Assembly: GCA_903845215.1 (NCBI GenBank)
Contig: CAIMWI010000012.1
Coordinates: 42,385 to 106,384 of the forward strand
DNA from: an uncultured Rhodobacterales bacterium
Lineage (GTDB): Bacteria; Pseudomonadota; Alphaproteobacteria; Rhodobacterales; Rhodobacteraceae
Length of the DNA stretch: 64,000 bases
Reading direction: 5' to 3'
Both the position numbers and the translations under genes were made by a program. How positions within the stretch are numbered: position 1 is the first letter of the stretch; each line of letters starts with the position of its first letter. Positions 12,464-54,361 of the stretch are shown in pieces. The notes under the pieces were generated by a model. That model was not told the DNA's origin. It saw nothing but the letters and a program-made list of their open reading frames with translations, and did no database searches.

Positions 12464-12516
12464 CCCCCGCACCCCCCCTTTCATATTTGCCCAAATATCC
12501 CACGGGGGTGCGGGGG
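12464..12516. repeat. Intergenic element copy A with 13-bp inverted repeat at a convergent junction
   Basis: CCCCCGCACCCCC (12464-12476) and its exact inverse GGGGGTGCGGGGG (12504-12516) flank a loop that carries the shared 23-base core (12479-12501: TTTCATAT, one variable base, then TGCCCAAATATCCC counted with overlap of the listed copies). It lies between the ends of the amidotransferase gene and the PhyH gene. The hairpin could end transcription in both directions. Related copies are at 14500, 28527 and, more weakly, 54339. Confidence 0.75.
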
Positions 12517-12538
12517 TGTGAAACCCCCGCTCTCACCT

Positions 12539-13330
12539 TTAGCCGCCAAGCAGCACGGGAAACCAATCCTCGCGCAGCCTTTGCCCCGCCACCATCGCAT
12601 GCCCCGGAAACGGCGGAGAGGTTTTTCCCGGCCGTTCAACGTAACGTGCGTCTTCGCCCACCAACCGCAGCGAAAAGGCGCGCCGTCGGGTGCCTGCCAC
12701 ATTGCCACGCGCGCCGTGCAGCGTGCGGTAGTCAAAGGCCACAGCATCCCCCGGCTCCATCGGCCATTCCAAAATGCGCATCCCTTCGGCATCAGGATCG
12801 GGGACGGGCATATATTTGTCAGGATCGGGATAAAACGATGTGTCTGACAGCCACCGCTTGGGCAAAACCTCTTTAGGCCATAGATGACTGCCCGCCACAC
12901 AGCGCAACGAGGCATCGCTCACAGGGTCAACCGGGCTCCAAAAGCTAATCGTCTGACGCCCTTCGACGAAGTAATAGGGTCCGTCTTGGTGCCATGGTGT
13001 GGGTTTGGCCGTGCCGGGTTCTTTGACCAGCACATGATCGTGAAACATCTGAACCCGCGAGCTTTGCATCAGATGCGCGGCGACACGGGCCACATCGGAA
13101 TTATAGATCACATCGCAAAATTCTGGAATGCGCTGCCAGTTGCAATAATCGTCAAAAAATCGACCCGCTTCTCCGGGTTTAAGGTTTTCCGCCCCATAAG
13201 GGCCCGGTTCGGCCATGTTCCGCTCGATCCCTGCGGTGATCTGTGGCACCCAGTTTTTCCAAAGGCCCTTGACCAAAACAACCCCGTCGCGCTGAAACGC
13301 TTCGACCATATCTGCGGTAACTGTGACCAT
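12539..13330 (-). CDS. Phytanoyl-CoA dioxygenase (PhyH) family protein
   Basis: Predicted non-haem Fe(II)/2-oxoglutarate oxygenase of 263 residues. The iron ligands are visible as WHQDGP (His114, Asp116) and LHGARGN (His205), and a downstream arginine in FSLRLVGED could bind 2-oxoglutarate. The start at 13330 has a strong GGAGG seven bases before the ATG; a longer open frame upstream of it is not supported. The substrate is unknown: the family hydroxylates lipids, phosphonates, ectoine and other small molecules. It stands alone, divergent from glk, and is followed by intergenic element copy A. Confidence 0.85.
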   Translation of the reverse strand: MVTVTADMVEAFQRDGVVLVKGLWKNWVPQITAGIERNMAEPGPYGAENLKPGEAGRFFDDYCNWQRIPEFCDVIYNSDVARVAAHLMQSSRVQMFHDHVLVKEPGTAKPTPWHQDGPYYFVEGRQTISFWSPVDPVSDASLRCVAGSHLWPKEVLPKRWLSDTSFYPDPDKYMPVPDPDAEGMRILEWPMEPGDAVAFDYRTLHGARGNVAGTRRRAFSLRLVGEDARYVERPGKTSPPFPGHAMVAGQRLREDWFPVLLGG

Positions 13331-13519
13331 GTGATCCTCCAAACTTTGCCTGACAGTCTTGGCACGGGTGGCCTGGGGTTTCAAACCCTCTCTGCGGGGC
13401 GCAAAATGCCGCATTCGGGCGCGATTTGGTCTTGTGTCTAGGGGGGTGAAAAGGCCAAAAGATCGGCAAATCTGACCTTGCGGCCCAAGCACAGCGGCCC
13501 TGACTGAAAAAGGTGACCC

Positions 13520-14482
13520 ATGACAGCTATCCTCGCCGATATCGGCGGCACCAATACCCGCGTGGCTTTGGCCGACGGATCTGTGGTGCGGCCCAATTCG
13601 ATCGCCAAGTTTGCCAACGCGGGGTTTGACAGTTTGGAGCCGATCCTGACGCGCTATTTGGCCGAGGCAGGCATCGCAAGCGTCGAAGGCGCTTGTATTG
13701 CTGCGGCAGGCCCCGTGCGCAATGGCGTGGCCGAGATGACAAACCTGTCTTGGGTGATCGACCATGCCCAACTGACCCGCGCCACAGGGGCCAAGCAGGT
13801 CGCCATTTTGAACGATTTGCAAGCGCAGGGTCAGGCCCTAAGCCATATTGCCCCCAGCTATTTGCGATCGGTCGTCGCAGGGTCTGCCGTGCCCAATGCC
13901 GCGATGCTGGTGGTGGGTTTGGGGACGGGCGTGAATGCAGCACCCGTGCACAACACGCCTTGGGGGCGCGTGGTGCCCCCGTCGGAATGTGGCCATGTCT
14001 CGATGCCCATCCGCACGGCCCGCGATCTGGCACTGGCCCAGTTCATTGAAAGCTATGGCCCCGAAGCGCATGGCTTTGCTGGCGTCGAAGATGCGCTGGC
14101 GGGGCGGGGTTTGGAACATGTCTATGCCTTTGTCACGCAAGAGGCGGGAAAACTGAACGCTCAAACTTCGGGCCAGATCATGGCGGATTTGGGCAAAGCC
14201 GATCCCTTGGCGCGCGAAGCGGCCAAGCTTTACATTCATATCCTTGGATCAACCTTGGGCAATCTGGCCCTAACCCACCTGCCCTATGGCGGTATTTTCT
14301 TGATCGGCGGAATGGCGCGTGCCCTAACCCCCTATATGGCCGAAATGGGCTTGGCCCAGTCGCTGACCGACAAGGGCCGTTTTGGCACTTTCCTGTCCAG
14401 TTTTCCGGTTTGGGTGGTTGAGGATGACTATGCTGCCCTGACGGGTTGTGCCGCTTATCTTGCCAATGGCGGGCAAGGCTGA
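13520..14482 (+). CDS. glk: Glucokinase
   Basis: ATP-dependent phosphorylation of glucose at position 6. The 320-residue protein belongs to the bacterial Glk family and not the ROK family: it has LADIGGTNTRVAL at the N-terminus (phosphate loop), AILNDLQAQG with the catalytic aspartate, GLGTGVNA, and PSECGHVSMP. The ATG at 13520 has GGTGACCC before it. A 189-base spacer separates it from the divergent PhyH gene. It is followed by intergenic element copy C and the convergent esterase gene. Confidence 0.92.
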   Translation: MTAILADIGGTNTRVALADGSVVRPNSIAKFANAGFDSLEPILTRYLAEAGIASVEGACIAAAGPVRNGVAEMTNLSWVIDHAQLTRATGAKQVAILNDLQAQGQALSHIAPSYLRSVVAGSAVPNAAMLVVGLGTGVNAAPVHNTPWGRVVPPSECGHVSMPIRTARDLALAQFIESYGPEAHGFAGVEDALAGRGLEHVYAFVTQEAGKLNAQTSGQIMADLGKADPLAREAAKLYIHILGSTLGNLALTHLPYGGIFLIGGMARALTPYMAEMGLAQSLTDKGRFGTFLSSFPVWVVEDDYAALTGCAAYLANGGQG

Positions 14483-14499
14483 CGTCTTCGCCTCCGGCG

Positions 14500-14522
14500 G
14501 GGATATTTGAGCACATATGAAA
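14500..14522 (-). repeat. Intergenic element copy C
   Basis: GGGATATTTGAGC followed by ACATATGAAA is the inverse complement of the core found at 28542-28564, differing at one of 23 positions. It is preceded by CCTCCGGCGG, as in the other copies. It sits between the ends of glk and the esterase gene, again a convergent junction. Confidence 0.75.
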
Positions 14523-14544
14523 ACAGTTGCGGCAGCGCGGGTCT

Positions 14545-15207
14545 TTAGCGTGGCAAAGTTTGTTGCAGAAAAGCCAAAGCCGTCGCAAGCCCATCTTGGG
14601 CGATTGTGTGGCCTGACCCTTGCATGACATGGGCATAGGTATCAAAACCAGCCGTCGATAAGGCATTACAGGTGGCCGTCATCTCAAAGAATGGCACCAC
14701 GTCGTCTTGATCACCGTGCAGCACAAGAACCGGAGGTTTGACGACCGCCTCGCCTGCCAGACGTTCTGGCTGCAGCAACTGGCCGGATATGGCTATGACG
14801 GATGCAAAGGGTGACGTGCGGCGCGGGGCCATATGCAGGCTAAGCATGGCACCTTGCGAGAAGCCCACCAAGCCAACAGCTTGCGGTTCCAGACCTTCAT
14901 AAGCCATACGCTGATCGACAAAACTGGCCAAATCAAGGGTTGACCGCTCTAATCCAGATGCGGCCTGTGCTGGGGTGGAACCGTCAAATCGGGGGATGGG
15001 AAACCACTGGCGCCCAAAGGGCGCACCGGGCAAACGCTCGGCGGCATCGGGGGCGACAAAGGCCGTATCGGGCAGGTGTGGGCCAAGCACATCGGCCAAG
15101 CTGAGCAGATCTGACCCATCAGCCCCATAGCCATGCACAAAGACCACAAGGCTTTTGGCTGTGCCTGAGAGTGCCGCCTTACGGCCGAATCGAAGAACTC
15201 TGCTCAC
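14545..15207 (-). CDS. Alpha/beta hydrolase, carboxylesterase/phospholipase type
   Basis: A 220-residue cytoplasmic serine hydrolase of the Abhydrolase_2 (acyl-protein thioesterase/carboxylesterase) family. The oxyanion region is VVFVHGYGADG, the nucleophile elbow is GFSQGAML, the acidic residue is in LHGDQDDVVPF, and the catalytic histidine is in GSGHTI. The start is a GTG at 15207 that overlaps the stop of the upstream glycosylase gene by GTGA, so the two are translationally coupled. The physiological substrate is unknown. Confidence 0.87.
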   Translation of the reverse strand: MSRVLRFGRKAALSGTAKSLVVFVHGYGADGSDLLSLADVLGPHLPDTAFVAPDAAERLPGAPFGRQWFPIPRFDGSTPAQAASGLERSTLDLASFVDQRMAYEGLEPQAVGLVGFSQGAMLSLHMAPRRTSPFASVIAISGQLLQPERLAGEAVVKPPVLVLHGDQDDVVPFFEMTATCNALSTAGFDTYAHVMQGSGHTIAQDGLATALAFLQQTLPR

Positions 15208-15845
15208 GTTATCCCCTCACGACGTTTTGCCACGCGGTAGTAAGACCAAAGCGCGCGCGCGGCAACCGCGCGCCAGGGGCTCCACCGTTGGGAAAGATCC
15301 GCCAGCGCCTTGGCCGTGGGGCGAAGGGGCAGAACATAGGCCAGCCTTACCGCTTCTTGCAGCGCAAGATCGCCGCTGGCAAAGACATCGGCGCGGCCAA
15401 GAGCAAAGATTGCATAGATTTCGGCCGTCCATTGGCCGATGCCTGTCACCGCTGTCAGAGTGGCGATAACTTCGGCGTCCGGGCGCAGCCGCAGCGCGTC
15501 GTAATCAATTCTCGCCTCGGCCAGCGCTTTCACATAGCGCGCCTTTTGCCGCGACAGGCCCAAGGCGCGCAAGTCCGCCTCTGGCGTAGCGGCCACAGCT
15601 TGGGCTAGCGTCAATCCTGCCGCCTTGAGACGCGCCATCAACGCTTGGGCCGAGGCGGTGGAAACCTGTTGTCCCAAGATCGCATCAAGAAGCGCGCCAA
15701 ACCCTTCGGGTGCGTGCCGCAGTGGCAATGGACCGGTTTGCAACAGGATCTGCCGCATGACCGGATCATGGGCGGACAGCCAATCCGCGCCTTCGGTCAG
15801 GCAATCGGGTCCCTGAATGATCCGTCGGGTTGGGGGCTGCGTCAT
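15204..15845 (-). CDS. DNA-3-methyladenine glycosylase II (AlkA type)
   Basis: Base-excision repair enzyme that removes alkylated purines. The 213-residue protein has the helix-hairpin-helix-GPD fold: TAVTGIGQWTAEIYAIFALG is the hairpin, and the catalytic aspartate lies in FASGDLALQEA. It lacks the N-terminal Ada-like or TBP-like domain of E. coli AlkA and matches the short form common in alphaproteobacteria. It is the first gene of a two-gene unit with the esterase. Confidence 0.87.
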   Translation of the reverse strand: MTQPPTRRIIQGPDCLTEGADWLSAHDPVMRQILLQTGPLPLRHAPEGFGALLDAILGQQVSTASAQALMARLKAAGLTLAQAVAATPEADLRALGLSRQKARYVKALAEARIDYDALRLRPDAEVIATLTAVTGIGQWTAEIYAIFALGRADVFASGDLALQEAVRLAYVLPLRPTAKALADLSQRWSPWRAVAARALWSYYRVAKRREGIT

Positions 15846-15944
15846 ACGGGTTTACCTGCATGATCCGATTTTCCAAGACAATCGGTGTTAGGGGCCAAAT
15901 TTCGCCCTTGCTGTGCCGTTCGGCCTCGCTTACGCCTTGCGCGC

Positions 15945-17168
15945 ATGGATAATACCCTTTCCGTTCAAGACAACGACGGACCGGCCCGCCGCAATGTGCT
16001 GGTGCTGGTGGCAGCCCAAGCGATTTTGGGCGCCCAGATGCCGATGATCTTTACCGTTGCAGGCTTGGCTGGCAAGCAATTGGCCCCCAATGCCTGCCTT
16101 GCCACACTGTCCATCAGCGTCATGGTGATCGGATCGATGCTATCGGCCAATCCGTTATCGGCTTTGATGGCACGATTTGGACGGCGTGCAGGATTTGTAG
16201 TTGGGGCACTTGGCGGGGCTTTGGGGGGTGCCGTTGCGGCTTATGGTCTGTCGATCGCCTCTTTTCCGCTGTTTTTGGTGGGAGCGTTTCTGTCGGGCGT
16301 CTACCAATCCTCGCAAGGGTTCTTTCGGTTTGCCGCAGCGGATAGCGCGTCCGATGCCTTTCGACCCAAGGCGATATCTTGGGTCATGGCTGGGGGCTTG
16401 CTTTCTGCCGTGGTGGGGCCGGAACTGGTGAAGGTGACGGCACAAAGTATGGCCGTTCCTTTCTTGGGCACCTATCTGGCCGTGATCGGGTTGAACGCGG
16501 TCGGTGTCTTCTTGTTCGTCGGGCTGAAGATCCCAAAACCCACGCAGCGCATGGGTTCGGCGGGGGGGCGTTCGCGCATGGAAATGCTGCGGTCGCCGCG
16601 GATTTTGGTCGCGGTGATTGTGGGCACGGTGTCTTATGCGCTAATGAATCTTGTCATGACATCCTCGCCGTTGGCGGTGGTCGGTTGCGGGTTTCACACC
16701 GCTGATGCGGCCAATGTTGTTACAGCACATGTGCTGGCCATGTTCATACCATCGTTTTTCACCGGCCACCTGATCGCCCGCTTCGGGGTAGAGCGGGTGA
16801 TGGCTATTGGCCTTGTGATCCTTGCCAGTGCCGGCATCGTCGCTATGGCGGGTGTACAGCTAGAGAATTTCTACCTTGCGCTGATCTTGTTGGGAATTGG
16901 CTGGAACTTTGGCTTCATCGGCGCCACGGCGATGCTGACGGGCGCGCATAGCGTGGAAGAACGCGGCCGGATGCAGGGGTTGAACGATTTTCTGGTCTTT
17001 GGCGGCGTCACTTTGGCCAGTTTTTCGTCAGGCGGGTTGATGAATTGTTCGGGCGGATCAGTGCAGACAGGGTGGCAGGCGGTGAATCTGGCCATGTTGC
17101 CGTTCTTGGTATTGGCCGGAGGGGCGCTGATTTGGCTGGCCCTGCGGCCCAAAGACCGCACCCTTTAG
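15945..17168 (+). CDS. MFS transporter
   Basis: A 407-residue major facilitator with about twelve hydrophobic segments. Features include the loop 2-3 motif MARFGRRAGFVVGALGGA (a motif A variant) and the second-half equivalent IARFGVERVMAIG. The start is taken at 15945 (MDNTLSVQDND), directly before the soluble N-terminus and first segment; a longer frame from 15885 has no clear support. The substrate cannot be inferred. The gene is divergent from the AlkA-type gene and is followed after 58 bases by the DsbA-like gene. Confidence 0.85.
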   Translation: MDNTLSVQDNDGPARRNVLVLVAAQAILGAQMPMIFTVAGLAGKQLAPNACLATLSISVMVIGSMLSANPLSALMARFGRRAGFVVGALGGALGGAVAAYGLSIASFPLFLVGAFLSGVYQSSQGFFRFAAADSASDAFRPKAISWVMAGGLLSAVVGPELVKVTAQSMAVPFLGTYLAVIGLNAVGVFLFVGLKIPKPTQRMGSAGGRSRMEMLRSPRILVAVIVGTVSYALMNLVMTSSPLAVVGCGFHTADAANVVTAHVLAMFIPSFFTGHLIARFGVERVMAIGLVILASAGIVAMAGVQLENFYLALILLGIGWNFGFIGATAMLTGAHSVEERGRMQGLNDFLVFGGVTLASFSSGGLMNCSGGSVQTGWQAVNLAMLPFLVLAGGALIWLALRPKDRTL

Positions 17169-17226
17169 GCCTTGACCACCTTAGCCCATGGGATGACACA
17201 GGGCCAAACATGAAAAAGCGGATATC

Positions 17227-17886: not shown

Positions 17887-19075
17887 ACCCCTCTCACAGC
17901 GCGAGTTTGTGGCCCTTAACGCCATGCTTTTTGCCACTGTGGCACTATCGATCGATGCAATGCTGCCTGCCTTACCTGCTATTACAGCAGCGCTTAGCCC
18001 TGACGCACCCAATCTGGCGCAATTGGTGGTGACAAGCTTTGTCTTGGGCATGGGGATTGGCACGCTGATCTCGGGCCCCTTGTCTGACGCTTTTGGGCGC
18101 AAACCCGTGTTGATCGGCTGTGCAACGCTGTATCTTTTGGCAACGTTTCTGTGTTTTGCGGCGCCGTCTTTGGAAACGCTGCTGATTGCGCGGGTCTTGC
18201 AGGGGGCGGGGGCAGCTGGGCCGCGGGCGGTGGGCACCGCGATGATCCGCGATCTGTTCAAAGGCCGTGACATGGCAAGGATCGTGTCCTTTGTCATGAT
18301 GATTTTCACCTTGGTGCCTGCGGTGGCCCCGCTTTTGGGCAAGGGTGTTATGGTGGTGGCCGGGTGGCGCGAGATTTTCTTGGTCTTTATGGTGTTCGCG
18401 CTGGTGGTGAACTTGTGGCTCGGCCTGCGCCAGCCTGAAACCTTGGCGATCGGCGCGCGCCGCGCTTTAAGCTTGGGCTTGCTGTGGGATGCCGCAAAAG
18501 AACTTGCCCGCCACCGCGTGGCGCTGATTTCAACAGCCTGCCAAACGCTAACCTCAGCTTGCCTTTTTGCCACGCTGTCGTCGATTCAAGGGATATTCGA
18601 GCAGTATTTCAACCGCGCCGCAGGGTTTCCTTTGTGGTTCACGCTGATCGCCCTTTGCGCGATCAGCGGGTCGTTTGTGAATTCGCGCATTGTGGTGCTG
18701 GTGGGGATGCGTAAGGTGCTGGTCGCGACCTATATTGCCCAAGTGTCTTTGACCTTGGTCATGTTATCAGCCCTTGCCAGCGGCGGGTTAGGCGCTCTTG
18801 CCTTTCCAGCGTTTCTGATCTGGGCCATCGGCATTTTTGCGATGATGGGGCTGACGATGGGCAATCTGAATGCGCTGGCGATGGAAAATCTGGGCCATAT
18901 CGCAGGCTTCGCCTCATCTTTGATCACGGCCATTTCCACCGTGGCTTCGGTTTTACTGGCGATTCCGGTGGGTCAAGCGTTCGATGGCACCCCCCTGCCC
19001 TTGCTTAGCGGGGTTATGGTGTTTTCCAGCTTGGCGCTGATCCTGATTTTGGCAGTGCGCAAAGGCCCTGCGTGA
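17879..19075 (+). CDS. Bcr/CflA-family MFS drug efflux transporter
   Basis: A 398-residue inner-membrane transporter. The N-terminal signature of the Bcr/CflA group is clear: SIDAMLPALPAI, then GPLSDAFGRKPVLIG (motif A), ARVLQGAGAAGPRAVGTAMIRDLF, and later MMIFTLVPAVAPLLG. About twelve hydrophobic segments are present. The ATG at 17879 lies inside the end of the DsbA-like gene (eight-base overlap), which fits the start before LKPLSQREF. The substrate is unknown; relatives export sulfonamide, bicyclomycin or florfenicol. Confidence 0.9.
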   Translation: MLKPLSQREFVALNAMLFATVALSIDAMLPALPAITAALSPDAPNLAQLVVTSFVLGMGIGTLISGPLSDAFGRKPVLIGCATLYLLATFLCFAAPSLETLLIARVLQGAGAAGPRAVGTAMIRDLFKGRDMARIVSFVMMIFTLVPAVAPLLGKGVMVVAGWREIFLVFMVFALVVNLWLGLRQPETLAIGARRALSLGLLWDAAKELARHRVALISTACQTLTSACLFATLSSIQGIFEQYFNRAAGFPLWFTLIALCAISGSFVNSRIVVLVGMRKVLVATYIAQVSLTLVMLSALASGGLGALAFPAFLIWAIGIFAMMGLTMGNLNALAMENLGHIAGFASSLITAISTVASVLLAIPVGQAFDGTPLPLLSGVMVFSSLALILILAVRKGPA

Positions 19076-19087
19076 CGCTTATCCATT

Positions 19088-19116
19088 AGCGCGCGAAGAT
19101 TCGAACCAAGCGCGCT
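19088..19116. terminator. Hairpin between convergent genes
   Basis: AGCGCGC (19088-19094) and GCGCGCT (19110-19116) form a perfect 7-bp stem between the ends of the Bcr/CflA-like gene and the penicillin acylase gene. There is no clear T-run, so termination is only a possibility. The loop contains ATTCGAACC, which on the minus strand resembles a tRNA T-loop. Confidence 0.4.
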
Positions 19117-19132
19117 TAGGCGTTCCCCCGTT

Positions 19133-21601
19133 TTAGGGCGTTGGCATAAGCCGGGTGATGCCGACGGCCCCCGCACGGGCCAGTTGCGGATCCAGCGTCA
19201 TGGGCAGATATTCGCCGCGCCGCCACAGTTCGGACAAATCATCGTAATGGCCTGACATAGGGTGACCACTTTGCCCCGTGGCAATGATAAAAACCGAGCT
19301 TTCTGGATCGGCAAAATCATAAACGCCGCGGTAACCACCGCCATGGACATTCTCGTAAGGGTAAGCCCCCATGCCGCGCGTTTGGCCGCGCATCAATGTA
19401 TTGTCACCGCCACTGGTGCTTTGGCGGATGTTGACAAAGTAATGCAAGACCGGAACCTTGCCCAGAACCGGGTGATCATGCAGCGCTTGATGCGCATCGC
19501 CCCAGCGCCAGCTTTCGATTGCAGGTCCATAGGTTTCCGACAGCGTCAGCAAAGCGTCATCCAAGGCCGTCTTGGCAATCTCGGAACAGCTTTCCACAGC
19601 CACCGATTGCACCACATCGCACCACAAGGATGCACCTTGGGTGTCACGGTAAACGCGTTCGATGAAATCGGGGTTCACATGGGTGATCACGTCAACCAAG
19701 GGCCCAATTTCGTCGCGGGTCAAATGGTCTTGCAGACTGCGCAGCCAAGCTTCGGCAATCAGGGGTTCGGGCAGATGTTCGTTTTCTTCACCGTTCCACC
19801 GCGCCAACAAGGCCAGCGCGTCTTGTCGCATCCGGTCTGGCGTGCCAAGCGGGGCGGCTTCGCCGGTGAACCAAAGATCTTTGCCGATCAAGGGCAGCAA
19901 GGTGCGCAATGTGGGCGAGACGGTGTCCAACTGCGCCTCGATAAAGCTGTCGCGGGTGTGAACCTCGCGGGTTTTCATCAGGGCCAACCAGCGTTGGATG
20001 CGCTGTGTGTCGCCCCATTCGAACGAGACATGGTTGGGAAACGGCCGATCAATGATCTTGTTGTTGGTATTTCCCAAAAGACCCGATGAGGGGTTTTTGA
20101 CGACGGGATTGTCGGCATAGGGAAAAAACCCTTCCCATCGGTTTTGGCCCTGCCATCCTGCGGCGGGCATTCGGCCTTGGGTTTCATGGGCAGCGTTGCG
20201 TTTGGGCATCCGGCCAATCATTTGCAGCGCGATCGTCTTGTCATCAACCAGCATCAGATTTTGCGACGGGGCAACAAAGCCTTGCGCTGCCGAAATCGCC
20301 GCATCGACCGAATGGGCCCGCATGACGGCCAAGGCAGCCGACATCGAGGTGTCAGCCCCATCCAGCGCTGTCCATTCCAAAGCCGCCAAAGCCCCTGTGG
20401 GGGTGACGGTTCCCAGATCATAAAAGCTGGCCGGCAAGATCGGCCCGGCCTGCGACCAAAGCTGCGTAATGGTGACCGGCGCTTGCCCCTTCACCGTGAT
20501 GATCGTGCGCGAGGTTACGAAATCTTTTGGCCCCTGTGGGGTTAGGTATTGATCTGGATTGTCGGGATTGACCCGCTCCATCACGACATCTTGGTCGTCC
20601 AGATAAGACGAGGTCAGCCCCCAGCCCAACAGCTCGCTTCGGCCCAGCAAAACCAAGGGCATGCCCGGAATAGTGGCACCGATCACATCGCCGCTGGAAA
20701 GGTGCAACCGCGCCAGATACCAAATCGACGGCGCGGTAAAATCCAAGTGCGGATCATTGGCAAGCAATCCCCCCCCCGCCGCTGAACGATTGGCCGCAGC
20801 AGCCCAAGCATTCGACGCCCCCGCCATTCCGGCCGAGGGGAAGGGCGAAAGAGGCTGGTCAAGGTCGGCCATGCGCTGCGGGATCTGCCCGGGTATCACG
20901 CTGGGCATCACAGCCGAGTATTGCGGCAGGGCCATAATGCCCTCTCCAGGGGCGTCTGGCAGAATGTCGCGAAGCTGATCAGGCGATAGGGTTAACGACA
21001 AACCCGCGCGCAGAACTTCGTTGTCAAGATGGCCCGACAATTGCAACGCCATCAGCTTTAGGATGGCAATCGAATCGGCCGGTGCCCAAGCGTCAATTTC
21101 TGACGAAAACAAAAAGAATTCCGGTGCGCCGCGCCCCAAAGCGCCCTTGTTCACCTGATCAATCCAAGAATTGACACCCGCAGCATAGGATTTAAGCGCC
21201 GCCGTCGTCTTGGCATCTTGGGCGGCGACCGAAGACAGGGCGAGGTTGTAAAGATCCAACCGACGGATCAATTCATCGGTGCGCAGGGTTTCAGGGCCAA
21301 AGATTTCAGACAAGCGCCCCTGCACCGTGCGGCGCAGCATAGACATTTGCCACAGGCGATCTTGGGCATGGGCAAAACCTAGGGCAAAATAGGCATCTGT
21401 ATCGTTGGCCCCAAAAATATGCGGCACATCGGCATTGTTGCGCACAATTTCCACCGGCGCGGCAATGCCTGCCACCGTCCAATTCGCGTTGTAATCGGGC
21501 AAAGAGCGCGAGATGAAGTAATAGGCCACAGCCAGAACCAAACCGCACAAACACAGCACAAACACCAAGCCGCGCAGGGTCCATTGAAAGGCTTTTAACA
21601 T
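19133..21601 (-). CDS. Penicillin acylase family Ntn-hydrolase
   Basis: An 822-residue precursor of the penicillin G acylase/acyl-homoserine-lactone acylase family. An N-terminal hydrophobic anchor (about residues 10-30) targets it to the periplasm or membrane. The alpha part includes VPHIFGANDTDAYFALGFAHAQDRLWQM. The predicted autocleavage site leaves Ser263 in GASNAWAAA as the N-terminal nucleophile, and LLANDPHLDF follows. C-terminal family signatures such as GGDNTL are present. Substrates could be beta-lactams, N-acyl homoserine lactones or other amides; sequence alone does not decide. It is a single gene with a 133-base spacer to the divergent dehydrogenase gene. Confidence 0.9.
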   Translation of the reverse strand: MLKAFQWTLRGLVFVLCLCGLVLAVAYYFISRSLPDYNANWTVAGIAAPVEIVRNNADVPHIFGANDTDAYFALGFAHAQDRLWQMSMLRRTVQGRLSEIFGPETLRTDELIRRLDLYNLALSSVAAQDAKTTAALKSYAAGVNSWIDQVNKGALGRGAPEFFLFSSEIDAWAPADSIAILKLMALQLSGHLDNEVLRAGLSLTLSPDQLRDILPDAPGEGIMALPQYSAVMPSVIPGQIPQRMADLDQPLSPFPSAGMAGASNAWAAAANRSAAGGGLLANDPHLDFTAPSIWYLARLHLSSGDVIGATIPGMPLVLLGRSELLGWGLTSSYLDDQDVVMERVNPDNPDQYLTPQGPKDFVTSRTIITVKGQAPVTITQLWSQAGPILPASFYDLGTVTPTGALAALEWTALDGADTSMSAALAVMRAHSVDAAISAAQGFVAPSQNLMLVDDKTIALQMIGRMPKRNAAHETQGRMPAAGWQGQNRWEGFFPYADNPVVKNPSSGLLGNTNNKIIDRPFPNHVSFEWGDTQRIQRWLALMKTREVHTRDSFIEAQLDTVSPTLRTLLPLIGKDLWFTGEAAPLGTPDRMRQDALALLARWNGEENEHLPEPLIAEAWLRSLQDHLTRDEIGPLVDVITHVNPDFIERVYRDTQGASLWCDVVQSVAVESCSEIAKTALDDALLTLSETYGPAIESWRWGDAHQALHDHPVLGKVPVLHYFVNIRQSTSGGDNTLMRGQTRGMGAYPYENVHGGGYRGVYDFADPESSVFIIATGQSGHPMSGHYDDLSELWRRGEYLPMTLDPQLARAGAVGITRLMPTP

Positions 21602-21734
21602 CGCAAAAATAGTCCTTTGACGTCAGGCGGGCTGGGCAGGTGACTGGGTTAAAGCAGGTCCTGTGCTTGACGCGCCCTGCGGAATGATCCTCTAGTCCAA
21701 AGCACAACGGCGCACAATTGGCGAGGCGGATAGG

Positions 21735-22598
21735 ATGGCAAAACTGGCGTTTTTGGGCTTAGGCGTGATGGGGTTTCCCATGGCAGGGCATTTGGTGGCC
21801 AAGGGGCACAGTGTCACCGTTTACAACCGCACGCCGGCCAAGGCCAAGCTTTGGGTTGAAAAATTCGGCCAGACCAGTGCCCCGACCCCCGCTTTGGCAG
21901 CCGAGGGGGCCGAGGTGGTGATGGCCTGCGTGGGCAATGACGACGATCTGCGCGCTGTGTGTTTGGGTGAGACTGGGGCTATTGCGGGCATGAAGGCGGG
22001 GGCGATCTTTGTTGATCACACCACTGTGTCGGCCGAAGTCACGCGCGAATTGGGCGCCTTGGCAGGCGCGCAGGGCAATGGGTTTATCGACGCACCTTTA
22101 TCGGGTGGTCAAGCGGGGGCAGAGAACGGGGTTTTGTCCATAATGTGCGGTGGGCTGCCCGATATCTACGCAAAGGTAGAACCCATCTTGCAAAGCTATG
22201 CCCGCATCTGCCGCCTTTTGGGTGGGCCAGGTTCGGGGCAATTGGCCAAGATGATGAACCAGATCTGCATCGCGGGTCTGGTGCAGGGCTTGGCCGAGGC
22301 CTTGGCCTTCGGGCAAAAGGCCGGGTTGGATGGGGCTGCGGTGGTTGAAGTGATATCTCAGGGCGCTGCGGGCAGCTGGCAAATGGTCAACCGGCACAAA
22401 ACCATGTTGGACGATAAGTTCGACTTTGGCTTTGCCGTGGATTGGATGCGCAAAGATCTTGGCATTTGTCTGGCGACGGCAAACCAGATTGGCGCAAGCT
22501 TGCCCGTAACAGCCTTGGTCGACCAGTTTTACAAAGACATCCAACGCATGGGTGGGCAGCGCAACGACACCTCTAGCCTGATCCGCCGCCTGAAATAG
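21735..22598 (+). CDS. NAD(P)-dependent oxidoreductase, 3-hydroxyisobutyrate dehydrogenase family
   Basis: A 287-residue beta-hydroxyacid dehydrogenase. The Rossmann motif is GLGVMGFPMAGHL at residues 7-19, the substrate motif is FIDAPLSGGQAGAENG, and the catalytic lysine lies in GSGQLAKMMNQI. The TPAKA segment after VTVYNR suggests NADP-type recognition, though this is an inference. The product could act on 3-hydroxyisobutyrate, tartronate semialdehyde or succinic semialdehyde; no pathway neighbours help. The ATG at 21735 directly follows AGGCGGATAGG. Confidence 0.88.
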   Translation: MAKLAFLGLGVMGFPMAGHLVAKGHSVTVYNRTPAKAKLWVEKFGQTSAPTPALAAEGAEVVMACVGNDDDLRAVCLGETGAIAGMKAGAIFVDHTTVSAEVTRELGALAGAQGNGFIDAPLSGGQAGAENGVLSIMCGGLPDIYAKVEPILQSYARICRLLGGPGSGQLAKMMNQICIAGLVQGLAEALAFGQKAGLDGAAVVEVISQGAAGSWQMVNRHKTMLDDKFDFGFAVDWMRKDLGICLATANQIGASLPVTALVDQFYKDIQRMGGQRNDTSSLIRRLK

Positions 22599-22601
22599 CC
22601 A

Positions 22602-22620
22602 GATGGGTCAAAGGCCCATC
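22602..22620. terminator. Short hairpin between convergent genes
   Basis: GATGGG and CCCATC form a 6-bp stem with a seven-base loop, a few bases after the stop of the dehydrogenase gene and before the end of the SYLF gene. A short TTTT follows eight bases later on the plus strand. A modest terminator candidate. Confidence 0.4.
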
Positions 22621-22639
22621 CGTACTTTTCGAAATCGCC

Positions 22640-23206
22640 TTACGGGATGATGCGGCTGTATTTCACGCCTTGCAGCGTAGCCCCAGCGATCAAGCCCTGC
22701 TGACCGAAGATCAAAGCCACAACAGGGTCAAGTTCGGTCGTGTCTTTGCCGATGGATGCGCCTTGCGCCGGTGTTGCATATTCAACCCCTGCCCCAGCCG
22801 CCCAACCATTGCTAGAGCGGAACTTTTGCAACGCATCTTCGGTGAGAAAGAAAATCGCATGGGCATATTGCTGTGCGCCCACTTGAAAGCCGAACGAGGC
22901 CGAGGTGGCGGAATAGTAATCCACCGTCATTCCATTGATCTGCAACGCCCCGCGCCCATAGGCGCCACCAAAGCCAAAGCCCGCTTCGGTCACAAGCGGC
23001 ATATACAAAACCCCCTTGGCATTTGCGGTCAAAGACTGCGCGCCGGGATAACGTTCTAACAGATAGGTTTTAGACGATTCGACGCGCGCGTCGATCGTTT
23101 CGGCGGCGTTTGAATTTACACCATTGCCCATGATCGCACTGTCACAAGCCGCCAGCCCCAAAGATGACGCGCCCAACACCAAAAAAGTCCGTCGAGAAAT
23201 AGCCAT
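22640..23206 (-). CDS. SYLF/YSC84-domain lipoprotein
   Basis: A 188-residue predicted lipoprotein. The signal sequence MAISRRTFLVLGASSLGLAAC ends in a lipobox (LAAC, Cys21), after a twin-arginine-like SRRTFL. The rest matches the SYLF (YSC84, lipid-binding) domain: AKGVLYMPLVTEAGFGFGGAYGRGAL, SATSASFGFQVGAQQYAHAIFFL, and a final GLIAGATLQGVKYSRI. The start at 23206 is chosen because GAGGCG lies six bases before the ATG. The family binds phosphoinositides in eukaryotes; the bacterial role is not clear. It is monocistronic. Confidence 0.85.
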   Translation of the reverse strand: MAISRRTFLVLGASSLGLAACDSAIMGNGVNSNAAETIDARVESSKTYLLERYPGAQSLTANAKGVLYMPLVTEAGFGFGGAYGRGALQINGMTVDYYSATSASFGFQVGAQQYAHAIFFLTEDALQKFRSSNGWAAGAGVEYATPAQGASIGKDTTELDPVVALIFGQQGLIAGATLQGVKYSRIIP

Positions 23207-23466
23207 GATACGCCTCATATTGCCTGGGGTCTGTAGCCCCTTGTTTGCAGAATAACAGGCTAAGCGCCCTTCGCCAAGCGCCCTGCTTGTGCGCGTTGGA
23301 ATAACGCTTGCCAAAACAAACGCGGTTCGATGAAGCAAGGCGCGTGCAAACGATACCGCTTGCTTCACGGTGACGTCAGCACATGCCGCAGACAAATCCC
23401 AAGACCCAAAGCCGAAAAATCACACAAGGGATCGCAAGTTTGCGCCATCAGCGGCAATGGCCCACA

Positions 23467-24474
23467 TCACGCCTTGCCCGCACGGATCGCCCGCGCCGCG
23501 TCGACGGCGAAATAGGTCAAAACCCCGTCACACCCGGCGCGGCGAAAGGCCATCAGGCTTTCAAGCATGACCTTTTCGCCGTCAATCCAGCCATTCAGCG
23601 CCGCCCCCTTGATCATCGCATATTCGCCCGACACCTGATAGGCATAGGTCGGCGCGCCAAAGGTGTCTTTCACGCGGCGACAGATATCCAGATAGGGCAT
23701 GCCGGGTTTGACCATCACCATATCGGCCCCCTGCATCAGATCACGTTCGACCAAGCGCAATGCCTCGTCAGAGTTGGCGGGGTTCATCTGGTAGGTTTTC
23801 TTATCACCCTTCAGCGCACCCGTGGCCCCCACAGCATCGCGGAAAGGGCCGTAAAAGGCGCTGGCATATTTGGCGGCATAAGACAGGATCGCGACGTTTT
23901 GGTGGCCCGCAGCCTCCATCGCTTGGCGAAGGGCACCGATGCGGCCATCCATCATATCTGACGGGCCTAGGATATCTGCGCCCGAGTCGGCTTGGGCCAA
24001 GGCCATCTTGACCAAGCACTCTACGGTTTCATCGTTCAAGATCACGCCGTCTTGCACCAACCCGTCATGGCCGTTGCTGTTATAGGGGTCTAGCGCCACA
24101 TCGGTCATCACGGCAATGTCTGGGACGGCGGCTTTGATGGCGCGGATGGCGCGGTTGGTCAGGTTGTCGGGGTTCCACGCCTCTTCGCAGCCGGGGGTTT
24201 TGACCTCGGGCTTGGTATAGGGGAACAGGCAAATCGCAGGGATACCAAGGCTTGCCGCTTCTTGGGCCGCTTCAACCAGCAGATCAACTGAGCGGCGAAC
24301 GACGCCGGGCATCGAGGCGATGGTTTGCGTCACACCGTGTCCATCGCAGACAAAAACTGGCCAGATCAGATCATTGACGGACAGCGTGTTTTCCTGCGCC
24401 AAGGCCCGAAGCGGCGCAGATGTGCGCAGCCGGCGAAAGCGGGCGGCAGGATGGGGGGCGGAAATCGGACGCAT
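23467..24474 (-). CDS. hemB: Delta-aminolevulinic acid dehydratase (porphobilinogen synthase)
   Basis: Condenses two 5-aminolevulinate molecules to porphobilinogen in tetrapyrrole synthesis. The 335-residue enzyme has both active-site lysines, in SYAAKYASAFYGPFRDA (Lys202) and VMVKPGMPYLD (Lys256). The usual zinc-cysteine region reads TDVALDPYNSNGHDG (from residue 124), with aspartate and alanine in place of the cysteines, so it should not need catalytic zinc; relatives of this type use magnesium or no metal. The start at 24474 has GAGGG before the ATG. It is monocistronic and divergent from the gene upstream of mfd. Confidence 0.96.
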   Translation of the reverse strand: MRPISAPHPAARFRRLRTSAPLRALAQENTLSVNDLIWPVFVCDGHGVTQTIASMPGVVRRSVDLLVEAAQEAASLGIPAICLFPYTKPEVKTPGCEEAWNPDNLTNRAIRAIKAAVPDIAVMTDVALDPYNSNGHDGLVQDGVILNDETVECLVKMALAQADSGADILGPSDMMDGRIGALRQAMEAAGHQNVAILSYAAKYASAFYGPFRDAVGATGALKGDKKTYQMNPANSDEALRLVERDLMQGADMVMVKPGMPYLDICRRVKDTFGAPTYAYQVSGEYAMIKGAALNGWIDGEKVMLESLMAFRRAGCDGVLTYFAVDAARAIRAGKA

Positions 24475-24558
24475 AGAACCCTCTAAAACGGCTTGCAGCT
24501 TTGTCACTTGCCTGACATGGAATAACCAAAGTCTCAAGACCTCTGAGGGAACGACGCG

Positions 24559-25083
24559 GTGAGCTTGTACAAATTGAGTGTCGAGTTCCTCGACCTTCGA
24601 TCCTTTTCAAACCTGTGGTACTGGATTGCCGTGTTTGCCGTCTGGGCAAAAGCCATAGGTTGGGGGCTGGGCGTGCCCTATGACATGGTGCGCAAAGCGC
24701 GCCGCGAGGGCGGGCAAGCGCTGTACGAATTAGAGGTGATGGCGCGGATCACCACAGGTCGAATGTTGGCAACTTCGCGCGGCTTTGGGCCTTGGCTGGT
24801 TGGCATGGTTAGCTTTGGGGTCACATCTTTGGCGCTTTTGGGCTTTGTTTATCACTCTGGATTGGCCGAGGCGGTCTTTTGCCTGTTCGCGCCGATGTGC
24901 GGCTTGGGGTACCTGTCTTTGCGCGCTGCCCTGCGGGTGGAAGCGGGCGAAGGGCAAGGAGAGCTGTTGTTAGCGCTTTTGACAGCGCACCGCAGATCGG
25001 CGCAAGCTTTGGCAAGCTTGGCTGTGGGGGCCACGATTTTGCTGGGCCTATACGACAAAGCCCACTTTTTTAGCCCCATCTAA
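24559..25083 (+). CDS. Uncharacterised small membrane protein upstream of mfd
   Basis: Product of 174 residues with about four hydrophobic segments (near residues 18-38, 78-100, 105-125 and 150-168). The N-terminus reads LSVEFLDLRSFSNLWYWIAV, and a positively charged cytoplasmic stretch VRKARREGGQ follows the first segment. The start is a GTG at 24559 behind GAGGGA. The stop lies two bases before the mfd start, so the two are almost certainly co-transcribed. I do not recognise a characterised family; close relatives in Rhodobacterales seem to carry only vague names. No function is assigned. Confidence 0.75.
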   Translation: MSLYKLSVEFLDLRSFSNLWYWIAVFAVWAKAIGWGLGVPYDMVRKARREGGQALYELEVMARITTGRMLATSRGFGPWLVGMVSFGVTSLALLGFVYHSGLAEAVFCLFAPMCGLGYLSLRAALRVEAGEGQGELLLALLTAHRRSAQALASLAVGATILLGLYDKAHFFSPI

Positions 25084-25085
25084 CG

Positions 25086-28000
25086 ATGGCCGATCGCATC
25101 ATTCTGGGCGGCGCGCCCGAGGGCTTTGACGCCAAGCTTTTGGCCCGTGAAGCAGCACGAGGCCAACCCGTGATCCACATCGCCCGCGACGACCGCCGGA
25201 TGGAGGCGATGCGCGCCGCCTTGGCCGTTTTGGCCCCCGCCAGCGTGATCTTGGAATTTCCGGCTTGGGATTGTTTGCCCTATGACCGCGTCTCGCCCAA
25301 TCCTGATATCGGCGCACGCCGCATGTCGACATTGGCAGCCCTTGCGGCGGGGGTTCCGCGGCCCTTCGTTCTGCTGACAACAATGAATGCCGCAACCCAG
25401 CGCATTCCGGCCCGCGATGTGCTGGAAACCGCCTCTTTTGCGGCCAAACTGGGCGACCGCGTGGACGAGGCGCGCTTGAAGCGGTTCTTGGCCAATATGG
25501 GCTTTTCGCCTGTGTCCACTGTGGCAGAACCTGGCGATTACGCCCTGCGCGGCGGGATTGTCGATATCTTCCCCCCCGGTCGCGGCGGCCCCGTGCGTTT
25601 GGATTTCTTTGGCGACCAGTTGGACGGTATTCGCCGCTTTGACCCAGCCACCCAACGCACCACGCAAAAGCTGACGGCGGTGGAATTCGCAACCATGTCA
25701 GAAGTGTTGCTAGACGATGCCGCCATCGCGCGCTTTCGCCAGAACTACCGTGCGGAATTTGGTGCGGGCGGATCGGATGATCCGCTGTATGAAGCGGTCT
25801 CAGCCGGACGCAAGCACCAGGGCATGGAACATTGGCTGCCCTTCTTTCATGCCCGCCTTGAAACGCTGTTTGATTATATGCCCACCGCCTCGGTGATCTT
25901 GGACGACCAAGTCACCGCGGCCCGCCTGTCACGCTGGGAAGGCATTGCCGACCAATACGATAGCCGGTTTGAGGCGATGACAACCAAGGGTCGGTTGGAC
26001 ACGGTCTATAAACCCTCGGCCCCGGGGCTTTTGTATCTTGACGATGCGGCGTGGGAACAAGCCTTGGCCCCCCACCGCGTTTTGCAACTGTCCCCCCTGC
26101 CCCAATCCCCCGGCCCGGGCGTTCTGGATGCCCAAGGCCGCATCGGGCGCAACTTTGCCCCCGAACGCCAACAAGAAAACGTCAGCCTGTTTGGCGCCTT
26201 TGCCGACCATCTGCGCGCCTGTCTGAAAGACAGCCACGTCGTGATCGCCTCGTATTCTGACGGGGCGCGCGAGCGGTTGAAAGGGCTGTTGGAAGACGAA
26301 AAGATCAAGACCCTCAAAGAGATCAAAGATTTCCGCGATATCCCCGACGGGCGCGGCGGGCTGTTCTTGGTGATCTGGCCGCTTGAGGCAGGCTTTCGCG
26401 CCCCCGATCTGACGGTGATCTCGGAACAAGATGTCTTGGGCGAACGCATGGTCGGCAAACCGCGCAAAAAGCGCAAAGCCGACAATTTCCTACGCGAGGT
26501 CGACACCCTGACCCCCGGCGATCTGGTGGTGCATGTCGAACACGGCGTGGGGCGCTATCTGGGGCTGGAAACGATCACCGCCCTTGGCGCACCGCATGCC
26601 TGTGTGGCGCTGGAATATGCCGAAAACGCCAAGCTGTATCTGCCGGTTGAAAACATCGAACTTCTCAGCCGCTACGGCCATGAAGAGGGCCTGCTAGATC
26701 GTCTGGGTGGCGGCGCGTGGCAGGCAAAAAAGGCCAAGCTGAAAGAGCGTATCCGCGAAATCGCCGACCGTTTGATGCGGGTTGCCGCCGAACGCGCCCT
26801 GCGCCACGCCCCCATTCTGGAAGCCCCCCATTCCATATGGGAGGCCTTTGCCGCCCGCTTCCCCTATACCGAAACCGATGACCAGTTGTCCGCCATTGCC
26901 GATGTGGTGGCCGATCTGGAAAAAGGCTCGCCGATGGACCGCCTGATTGTCGGCGACGTCGGCTTTGGCAAGACCGAGGTCGCGATGCGCGCGGCCTTTG
27001 TGGCAGCCCTTTCGGGGCAACAGGTGGCAGTGATCTGCCCCACAACCTTGTTGGCGCGTCAGCATTACCGCAGCTTTGCCGAACGCTTTCGCGGCTTTAA
27101 CATCTCGGTCAAACCCCTTTCGCGCTTTGTGGGCACCAAAGAGGCCAATGCCACGCGGGCCGGTCTGGCCGATGGCAGCGTGGATATCGTGGTGGGCACG
27201 CATGCGCTGTTGGCCAAGGGCGTCAGCTTCAACCGGTTGGGCCTGATGGTGATCGACGAAGAGCAGCACTTTGGCGTCAGCCATAAAGAGCGCCTCAAAG
27301 AGATGCGCTCGGAAATCCATGTGCTGACCCTGACCGCCACCCCCATCCCGCGCACGTTGCAACTGTCGCTGACAGGGGTGCGCGACCTGTCGATCATCGC
27401 CACCCCACCTGTCGACCGGCTGTCGATCAGAACCTATGTGTCCGAGTTTGACTCCATCACCATCCGCGAAGCTTTGCTGCGCGAACATTACCGCGGCGGG
27501 CAAAGCTTCTATGTCGTCCCCCGCATCAGCGACCTGCACGATATTGAAGATTTCCTCAAAACCCACGTGCCCGAAGTGACCTATTGCATCGCCCACGGCC
27601 AAATGGCGGCGGGCGAGTTAGACGACCGGATGAACCAGTTCTACGATGGCAAATATGATGTGCTTTTGGCCACAACCATTGTCGAATCAGGTCTGGATAT
27701 CCCCACCGCCAACACGATGATCGTGCACCGCGCGGATATGTTCGGTCTTAGCCAGCTGTACCAAATTCGCGGCCGCGTCGGGCGTTCCAAAACCCGCGCC
27801 TATGCCTATCTGACAACCAAACCCCGCGCGCCCCTGACACCACAAGCCAGCAAACGCCTGCGCCTGCTTGGCAGCCTTGATACCTTAGGCGCAGGGTTCA
27901 ACCTTGCCTCGCATGACCTTGATCTGCGCGGTGCTGGCAATTTGCTGGGTGAAGAGCAATCGGGCCATGTCAAAGAGGTGGGCTACGAACTGTACCAGCA

Positions 28001-28526
28001 GATGCTGGAAGAAACGATCGCAAAGATCAAATCGGGGGAATTGCAGGGCCTGTCGAAGCTTGACGATTCGTGGTCGCCCCAGATCAATCTTGGCGTGCCT
28101 GTGATGATCCCCGACAGCTATATCCCCGATCTTGACATCCGCCTTGGCCTGTACCGCCGCCTGTCTAGCCTTGCCACCAAGGTTGAACTCGAAGGCTTCG
28201 CCGCCGAACTGATCGACCGCTTCGGCCCGATCCCTAAGGAGGTGAACACCCTCATGGTGATCGTGCGCATCAAAGCCCTGTGCAAAAAGGCCGGCATGTC
28301 GCGGCTGGATGTCGGGCCCAAAGGGGCCACGGTGCAGTTTCACAACGACAAATTCGCCAATCCCGTAGGCCTTGTCGAATTCATGAAAGCCCAAGGCCCC
28401 GCCGCGCGCATCCAAGGCAATAAGATCGTGCTTATGGGCGAGATGAAGGGCGAAAGCGACCGCATCAAAGCGGCCTTTGCCATTGCCAAAGACTTGGCCG
28501 AAAAGGTCGTCAAACCCAAAGGCTAA
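25086..28526 (+). CDS. mfd: Transcription-repair coupling factor
   Basis: ATP-dependent translocase that removes RNA polymerase stalled at lesions and recruits UvrA. The 1146-residue product has a UvrB-like N-terminal part (EFPAWDCLPYDRVSPNPD, FPPGRGGPVRLDFFGDQLD), the RNA polymerase-interaction domain (LTPGDLVVHVEHGVGRYLGLE, near residue 475), and helicase motifs: VGDVGFGKTEVAMRAAF (Walker A), VIDEEQHFGV (DEEQ box), LTLTATPIPRTLQ, and QIRGRVGRS. The C-terminal TRCF domain follows (VPVMIPDSYI). Length is normal. It follows a small membrane protein gene by two bases and ends in intergenic element copy B. Confidence 0.97.
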   Translation: MADRIILGGAPEGFDAKLLAREAARGQPVIHIARDDRRMEAMRAALAVLAPASVILEFPAWDCLPYDRVSPNPDIGARRMSTLAALAAGVPRPFVLLTTMNAATQRIPARDVLETASFAAKLGDRVDEARLKRFLANMGFSPVSTVAEPGDYALRGGIVDIFPPGRGGPVRLDFFGDQLDGIRRFDPATQRTTQKLTAVEFATMSEVLLDDAAIARFRQNYRAEFGAGGSDDPLYEAVSAGRKHQGMEHWLPFFHARLETLFDYMPTASVILDDQVTAARLSRWEGIADQYDSRFEAMTTKGRLDTVYKPSAPGLLYLDDAAWEQALAPHRVLQLSPLPQSPGPGVLDAQGRIGRNFAPERQQENVSLFGAFADHLRACLKDSHVVIASYSDGARERLKGLLEDEKIKTLKEIKDFRDIPDGRGGLFLVIWPLEAGFRAPDLTVISEQDVLGERMVGKPRKKRKADNFLREVDTLTPGDLVVHVEHGVGRYLGLETITALGAPHACVALEYAENAKLYLPVENIELLSRYGHEEGLLDRLGGGAWQAKKAKLKERIREIADRLMRVAAERALRHAPILEAPHSIWEAFAARFPYTETDDQLSAIADVVADLEKGSPMDRLIVGDVGFGKTEVAMRAAFVAALSGQQVAVICPTTLLARQHYRSFAERFRGFNISVKPLSRFVGTKEANATRAGLADGSVDIVVGTHALLAKGVSFNRLGLMVIDEEQHFGVSHKERLKEMRSEIHVLTLTATPIPRTLQLSLTGVRDLSIIATPPVDRLSIRTYVSEFDSITIREALLREHYRGGQSFYVVPRISDLHDIEDFLKTHVPEVTYCIAHGQMAAGELDDRMNQFYDGKYDVLLATTIVESGLDIPTANTMIVHRADMFGLSQLYQIRGRVGRSKTRAYAYLTTKPRAPLTPQASKRLRLLGSLDTLGAGFNLASHDLDLRGAGNLLGEEQSGHVKEVGYELYQQMLEETIAKIKSGELQGLSKLDDSWSPQINLGVPVMIPDSYIPDLDIRLGLYRRLSSLATKVELEGFAAELIDRFGPIPKEVNTLMVIVRIKALCKKAGMSRLDVGPKGATVQFHNDKFANPVGLVEFMKAQGPAARIQGNKIVLMGEMKGESDRIKAAFAIAKDLAEKVVKPKG

Positions 28527-28564
28527 CCCCCCGCACCCCCCTTTCATATGTGCCCAAATATCCC
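28527..28564 (+). repeat. Intergenic element copy B, abutting the mfd stop
   Basis: Directly after the mfd TAA comes a CCCCCCGCACCCCC tract, then the 23-base core (28542-28564: TTTCATATG then TGCCCAAATATCCC) and CCGCGGAGCG. The C-rich tract and core match copy A at 12464-12501 almost base for base, although the flanking genes are unrelated. It lies at the convergent mfd/hflX junction. Confidence 0.8.
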
Positions 28565-28599
28565 CCGCGGAGCGTCCACCGCCAGCCCCGCGCGCAGGT

Positions 28600-54338: not shown

Positions 54339-54361
54339 TTTCCCACTTACCCAAACATCCC
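54339..54361 (+). repeat. Degenerate copy D of the intergenic element (weak)
   Basis: TTTCCCACTTACCCAAACATCCC minus its central variable bases matches the core of copies A-C at 17 of 23 positions, including TTTC at one end and CCCAAA-x-ATCCC at the other. It lies four bases after the dehydrogenase stop, but at a co-directional junction. It could be chance. Confidence 0.35.

Follow-up and report, generated by a model that had tools for sequence, protein, structure and literature searches.

Bacterial interspersed mosaic elements (BIMEs) are associated with gyrase, and TTF-I and Reb1 are eukaryotic, polar terminator proteins that bind downstream DNA. In the excerpt of PMC3733652 consulted here, repetitive extragenic palindromic (REP) elements have hairpins with GTAG or CGTC conserved at one end, and the consulted excerpt of Kingsford 2007 (PMC1852404) places uptake sequences of Neisseria and the Pasteurellaceae in terminators. 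Here, a dispersed element of gene ends is described from a 64,000-nucleotide stretch (the window; positions 42,385 to 106,384 of contig CAIMWI010000012.1, assembly GCA_903845215.1) of the genome of an uncultured Rhodobacterales bacterium (G000; 2.97-Mb draft, 93% complete, 88 contigs). In the orientation common to all aligned copies, the element consists of a GC hairpin, GG(GA/AG)TATTT, three free bases and a tag of about 11 bases. It is present in dozens of copies at gene ends in random orientation, with a conserved stem and a free 3-base spacer; it is conserved at orthologous sites, its dialect changes genome-wide between congeners, and G000 holds two dialects, each tied to GA or AG.

Like REP elements and BIMEs with their REP-associated tyrosine transposases (RAYTs), the element is an extragenic palindrome with many copies, single and in inverted pairs, and with lineage-specific sequences, but it differs from them in a conserved linear tag that lies beyond the hairpin and is set off by a free triplet, and in being inherited at the same sites. 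Judged by eye, the aligned copies listed have no conserved GTAG or CGTC end motif, and the Y1 transposase of RAYTs (PF01797) was found neither in the G000 draft nor in 19 of 20 element-bearing genomes (G000 included), the one match being in G075. Membership of the REP/RAYT family was rejected on these two points, the palindromic, many-copy character being shared. With Rho-independent terminators the element shares a GC hairpin beside an AT-rich run past stop codons; it differs in its weak T run of only (A)TATTT, in its random orientation to the gene and in a conserved tag that lies downstream of the expected RNA end. As far as the excerpt on uptake sequences goes, these resemble the element in being short, species-specific dialects at gene ends with inverted pairs, and differ in that the element's tag lies nearly always inside the element, copies are far fewer and the hairpin is a separate module. 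A protein site beside a release element at gene ends would, by analogy, work much as the sites of TTF-I and Reb1 do. Known Rfam RNA families were rejected, as the window had no match at gathering score.

Copies of the element in the window

Genes were called with our own codon-usage script, by which 90% of the window is coding. The parts of the three copies (A, B and C) and of a decayed fourth are as follows.

12479 to 12501, minus strand: core of copy A, with GGGATATTT at 12501-12493, the free triplet at 12492-12490 and the tag CAAATATGAAA at 12489-12479
12502 to 12530, minus strand: class-2 hairpin of copy A, GCGGGGGT-TTCAC-ACCCCCGC at 12530-12510 (stems covary across copies; fold), then a second C tract, ACCCCCGT, at 12509-12502
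12464 to 12478, minus strand: G-rich 3' flank of copy A, GGGGGGGTGCGGGGG, common to copy C
14500 to 14522, plus strand: core of copy B, with GGGATATTT, the free triplet GAG at 14509-14511 and the tag CACATATGAAA at 14512-14522 (orthologues read)
14484 to 14504, plus strand: class-1 hairpin of copy B, GTCTTCGCC-TCC-GGCGGGGAT, within which lies the family-wide CCTCCGGCGGGG (fold)
28542 to 28564, minus strand: core of copy C, with GGGATATTT at 28564-28556, the triplet GGG at 28555-28553 and the tag CACATATGAAA at 28552-28542
28565 to 28574, minus strand: short hairpin of copy C, CGCTCCGCGG, a class-1 variant
28527 to 28541, minus strand: G-rich 3' flank of copy C, GGGGGGTGCGGGGGG, which abuts the stop codon of the plus-strand gene
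54339 to 54361, minus strand: decayed fourth copy that has lost its hairpin, GGGATGTTTGGGTAAGTGGGAAA; the relative G006 has an intact element at the orthologous junction (L251)

An earlier note on this DNA had reported three 23-base cores between the stop codons of convergent genes. All three (A, GGGATATTTGGGCAAATATGAAA; B, GGGATATTTGAGCACATATGAAA; C, GGGATATTTGGGCACATATGAAA) were recovered, with no match in 100 dinucleotide shuffles of the window, and by our gene calls each lies between convergent stop codons, at 12440/12539 (A), 14482/14545 (B) and 28526/28600 (C). The weak match at 54339, listed there as a fourth copy, is real, as seen from its intact counterpart in G006. The details required amendment: B and C differ at one base as reported, A and B differ at two bases rather than one, and A and C at one; the cores do not share the ending GCCCAAATATCCC, since copy B reads GCTCAAATATCCC; and the C-rich tract CCGCACCCCC is common to A and C, not to A and B. 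The CTCCG tract noted beside B and C is the hairpin carried by these two copies, and A has a different one with the loop TTTCACA. The hairpins 5' of the core are thus of different kinds (class 2 in A, CCTCCGGCGGGG of class 1 in B, the class-1 variant CTCCGCGGGG in C), and class 3, CCGGGGCGCTGCCCCGG plus ACCCC, is found at other sites. In copy A, the G-rich 3' flank and the C tracts can, on folding, close a longer stem around the core.

By Pfam, the genes at the junctions encode an amidotransferase and PhyH (A), a glucokinase and a carboxylesterase (B), and an Mfd-like TRCF and an HflX-like GTPase (C). Mfd is the factor that removes stalled RNA polymerase; the position of junction C at the 3' end of the mfd-like gene (25086-28526) is probably a coincidence. 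A promoter-like match, TTCACA-17-GATATT, lies inside copy A (12494-12522, minus strand) and is formed by the hairpin loop and the core; a sigma-70-like promoter was dropped as a reading because the spacer length changes with the stem.

Dialects and the free triplet

The GA-dialect core of G000 reads GGGATATTT, three variable bases, CANRTATGAAA. When it was counted genome-wide, as the earlier note had proposed, 63 copies were obtained at up to three mismatches (reversed control 0), and the looser pattern GGGATATTT-N9-TGAAA gave 120 matches at up to two mismatches (control 6). Because six of the 59 zero-mismatch copies listed lie at most 64 bases from a contig end (C12, 27; C13, 15; C19, 9; C23, 22; C61, 42; C88, 32), short-read assembly probably fails at the repeat, which would make the copy counts lower bounds.

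Among the listed copies of about 12 genomes, each genome has only one or a few versions of the tag after the free triplet, and tags differ between genera, examples being GACACATGAT, AACAGAAGAA, AGCAAAAGAT, ACCCAAAGAA and GAACAATGAA. All 34 elements found in 800 kb of G123 (regions round listed copies plus spaced places) carry AGCAAAAGATG, with many values of the triplet. More than one dialect is present in several genomes, and each goes with its own dinucleotide just ahead of TATTT. In G000, GA was found with CANRTATGAAA 58 times and AG with CC(AAGA/TCGG)TGAAR, i.e., CCAAGATGAAR or CCTCGGTGAAR, 23 times, without crosses; two GA sites had neither tag. The linkage held likewise in 31/31 rows of G162 and 28/28 of G094. 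Since the same hairpin classes precede both dialects in G000, hairpin and GA/AG-TATTT-triplet-tag are separate modules. The spacer measured exactly three bases in 57/57 GA and 34/34 AG matches of G000, 69/69 of G006, 33/33 of G123 and 34/34 of G162, and no other length (0 to 8 tried) was seen in those matches.

At least 69 of the 72 CANRTATGAAA matches in G000 lie in an element (reversed control 2); the other three may be chance or unlisted degenerate copies. For G006, at least 67 of the 78 tags listed lie in an element among the 100 of 112 places listed at up to one mismatch. These counts bear on the idea that the tag is a DNA-uptake-sequence dialect parked in terminators, as in Neisseria or the Pasteurellaceae, which would account for short dialects that differ by lineage and that coexist in several genomes, for their frequent position near gene ends and for inverted pairs. 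Uptake sequences are free-standing and generally number 1,000 or more, and here the tags are nearly all confined to elements, with at most 158 copies per genome in any of the element searches. Membership of this class was rejected on the G000 count, and the explanation is extremely unlikely.

Conservation at orthologous sites

At the orthologous junctions of copy B, five species share CCTCCGGCGGGGATATTT and TATGAAA, with the spacers GAG (G000), GGG (G004), GGG (G005), AGA (G006) and TTTG (G014, one base longer). The site of copy A carries a class-2 element in G000, G004, G014, G002 and G008 and a class-3 element at the same place in G006; G005 has a 28-base gap without an element.

For a quantitative comparison, 43 orthologous element pairs of G000 and its congener G006 were used, whose flanking alignments have 85.8% identity. 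Differences per site amounted to 1.6% in GGGATATTT, 23% in the free triplet, and 1.2%, 52% and 2.7% at tag positions 13-14, 15-16 and 17-23, respectively (positions 10-18 being bias-free), and rose to 60% in the sequence immediately on either side. The high value at positions 15-16 is a genome-wide dialect shift: the same two bases changed at many unlinked sites (21 and 24 of the 43 pairs), CACATATGAAA makes up 44 of 72 tags in G000 and, in G006, 7 of the 78 listed out of 114, and CACGTATGAAA makes up 1 of 72 and 34 of the same 78, respectively. We read such parallel change at unlinked sites as the probable mark of something read in trans, and the constrained core around a free triplet fits selection in place against a trans-acting reader and not recopying. 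Together with the tag-dinucleotide linkage, these patterns support a dedicated recognition site, such as that of a DNA-binding protein, which the earlier note had considered.

A selfish mobile repeat, i.e., a REP or REPIN (paired REP) or a relative of miniature inverted-repeat transposable elements (MITEs), with copies alike through recent copying, would explain the many near-identical dispersed copies, the inverted pairs, the lineage-specific sequences and the near-identical class-2 units of about 70 bases. Copying or gene conversion would, however, have carried the triplet along and homogenised it too, yet the triplet drifts between two halves that are fixed at shared sites; recopying and gene conversion were therefore rejected as the cause of the uniformity. 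Site-specific stems are also inherited at their sites, and the transposase is missing as described above, so that a selfish repeat appears quite improbable. Turnover of sites was seen nonetheless among the 75 of 112 G006 elements examined: with both flanks mapped to the window, those at L052, L209 and L252 have no copy in G000, and A, B and C are common to both genomes.

The region at about 19150-28525 of the window, between the convergent junction 19075-19133 and junction C, is inverted with respect to several congeners (e.g., G010), and G005 has a different inversion near it. Both breakpoints of the inversion are gene-end junctions at which G006 carries elements.

Position and orientation relative to genes

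Position was scored for five element sets, i.e., the GA-dialect and AG-dialect sites of G000 (GA set and AG set) and the elements of G162, G094 and G123, at 178 sites that lie outside genes with both neighbours called. Left out were seven GA sites inside a gene and seven with a neighbour missing, four AG sites inside a gene, and one inside a gene in each of G162, G094 and G123. A co-directional site was scored as sense if the hairpin points towards the upstream stop codon and as antisense otherwise. The 178 sites comprised 75 convergent, 46 co-directional sense, 47 co-directional antisense and 10 divergent junctions, a balance of orientations that is favoured by the counting of both arms of inverted pairs; with inverted pairs less than 200 bases apart removed, the GA set had 16 sense and 15 antisense sites.

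The position at gene 3' ends proposed earlier thus holds for 168 of the 178 sites. Convergent junctions, to which the three full copies of the earlier note belonged, are enriched (p=0.013 in G000, p=3e-10 in G123) without being the rule, and were rejected as the sole place, since 93 sites are co-directional; divergent junctions are avoided (5/62 in G000, p=0.00014; p=0.0007 in G123). A first comparison, with only the 34 window junctions of at least 50 bases, had shown no convergent enrichment (p=1.0), which appeared in the larger samples. Deviations per copy were 0.55 at +/+ and 0.47 at -/- sites, 0.11 at convergent sites and 0.8 at the five divergent ones, so that conservation is equal in both co-directional orientations, best at convergent and worst at divergent junctions. 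In the copies L003, L022, L060, L066, L074, L075, L077 and L097, the tag extends at its end into the ribosome-binding region of the gene that follows, 9-20 bases ahead of that gene's start codon.

Three explanations other than the one set out below were weighed against these data. The element could be an ordinary one-way intrinsic terminator, with a GC hairpin, a weak U tract AUAUUU and transcripts ending in the free triplet. (A)TATTT comes immediately after the hairpin, the triplet coincides with the expected point of RNA release, sites are near stop codons, and the fold of copy B is stronger in the sense than in the antisense strand (-11.9 vs -6.2 kcal/mol). One-way termination is disfavoured because orientation to the gene is random, with wrong-way sites as numerous and as conserved as right-way ones, and a sense-only terminator was rejected on this count; moreover, the tag past the triplet would be outside the RNA and is yet conserved and lineage-specific, and some copies lie 9-20 bases before a start codon. 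We consider a one-way terminator unlikely. A DNA site at gene ends on which a topology or nucleoid protein docks, comparable to BIMEs with gyrase and without direct effect on RNA polymerase, would accommodate the orientation-free place past stop codons, the avoidance of divergent junctions, the inverted pairs and a site seemingly read as DNA; alone it does not explain why a covarying hairpin always stands beside the tag, and it is likewise judged improbable. Finally, an RNA-binding protein or small RNA might read the tag in mRNA 3' ends, in keeping with the covarying hairpin and its place in 3' ends. Half of the co-directional copies would, however, put the complement of the tag into the mRNA, with conservation undiminished, which makes such an RNA-level signal very unlikely.

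Orientation relative to the replication arms was uneven in G123 (12:5 against 5:12, p=0.04; convergent sites only, 7:3 against 3:6, p=0.18), and neighbouring elements were alike in orientation in G162 (33/46, p=0.0045, first 100 of 158 places), with no such signal in G000 (29/57) or G006 (23/48). Neighbour orientation in G162 and G123 perhaps follows the replication arms, which is not general.

Hairpin pairing

Of 173 elements from G000, G006 and other relatives, the pattern placed 49 in class 1. In the 124 others, an upstream stem of at least six Watson-Crick pairs was present in 80.6%, compared to 4.8% of flanks and 6.1% of shuffles. Class-2 stems were anchored on the loop and hence not selected for pairing; their 23 distinct versions (55 elements) stay paired at positions 1-7 (19 to 22 of 23 at each), with pairs switching among C-G, G-C, T-A and A-T, and position 8 is paired in only six of 23. 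Nine inverted pairs were found in G094, six of them with identical free triplets in both arms.

Distribution

In the draft genomes used, contigs are at times broken at the repeat. In a collection of 84,980 species, from which G000 may be left out, the exact core was found in only four draft genomes (71 stretches), labelled Rhodobacteraceae, Rhodobacterales or Pseudorhodobacter antarcticus. Among 41 genomes, the core at up to three mismatches was present in 15 of 16 of the genus (G000 included), and one of 25 others had one weak match. The class-1 form CCTCCGGCGGG(RN)TATTT-N8-ATGAA was found at up to two mismatches in 111 of 149 Rhodobacteraceae genomes (reversed controls 0) and the class-2 form at up to two mismatches in 39 of 100 genomes. 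The window core is one dialect of a Rhodobacteraceae-wide element, which was not found described in literature word searches, subscription journals lying mostly outside their reach.

The class-1 form is also carried by 45 viral contigs of IMG/VR (L330-L374), a number of them 13.7-14.5 kb long; L346 encodes a terminase, a portal, a major head protein and a giant tail protein, a content that we would expect of a gene-transfer-agent cluster rather than a phage. The class-2 unit was found on 15 plasmid records (H1-H15) of Paracoccus (13 of 15), Gemmobacter and Cereibacter, with no annotated feature beneath it in 13, one record being unannotated and one match lying under a gene.

Proposed function

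We tentatively favour, with a confidence somewhat short of even, the explanation that the family-wide hairpin and GGGATATTT-NNN-CANRTATGAAA form, at gene ends, a protein-bound stretch of duplex DNA that acts as a leaky two-way barrier to polymerase and protects mRNA 3' ends. A lineage-specific protein would dock on 20-odd base pairs of duplex DNA and slow RNA polymerase coming from either side; once the polymerase is past the hairpin, the stable stem would form the end of the RNA, either directly or after trimming, and would shield the mRNA 3' end. A protein as reader, its slowing of RNA polymerase and the shielding of RNA by the hairpin are inferences. So is the reading of DNA rather than RNA, since an RNA-borne signal could do nothing at half of the co-directional copies, unlike a signal in duplex DNA. 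The barrier would have to be leaky, because a start codon lies 9-20 bases past the tag in 5 of 20 +/+ sites and in three of the seven scored inside a gene.

Several points weigh against this explanation. Such start codons are hard to reconcile with a firm stop, and at antisense sites RNA polymerase arriving from the gene reaches the tag first and the hairpin afterwards. The search patterns for most loci presupposed a spacer of three bases, one B orthologue (G014, L165) has a 4-base spacer, and at 14 of the 23 positions the pattern of the G000/G006 search restricts mismatches. Of the 78 tags listed for G006, 11 lie outside the 100 of 112 element places listed at up to one mismatch, and in G041 at least four different tags occur among the 15 copies listed. 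New sites must stem from some copying process; at many places, about 70 bases of the class-2 form show mostly 93-98% identity (88% in one case).

A wider reading, which we hold to be possible and clearly more doubtful than not, is a gene-border system of lineage-dialect addresses, in which each genome would use one or several dialects, each dialect would have a dedicated DNA-binding protein and address and reader would co-evolve, dozens of unlinked sites switching together. If true, a gene-border system of that kind has not been described before in bacteria; the element may prove to be a new form within extragenic palindromic repeats, and the reader system may prove to be new. To our knowledge, transcript ending in GC-rich alphaproteobacteria is poorly mapped. 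A defined 23-bp site with tens to more than 100 natural copies per genome, in both orientations and with natural dialect variants, is a handle that would serve to fish out the reader and to test transcript ending against chromosome organisation, and its fixed halves around a free triplet would illustrate clearly how numerous dispersed sites change in concert in trans.

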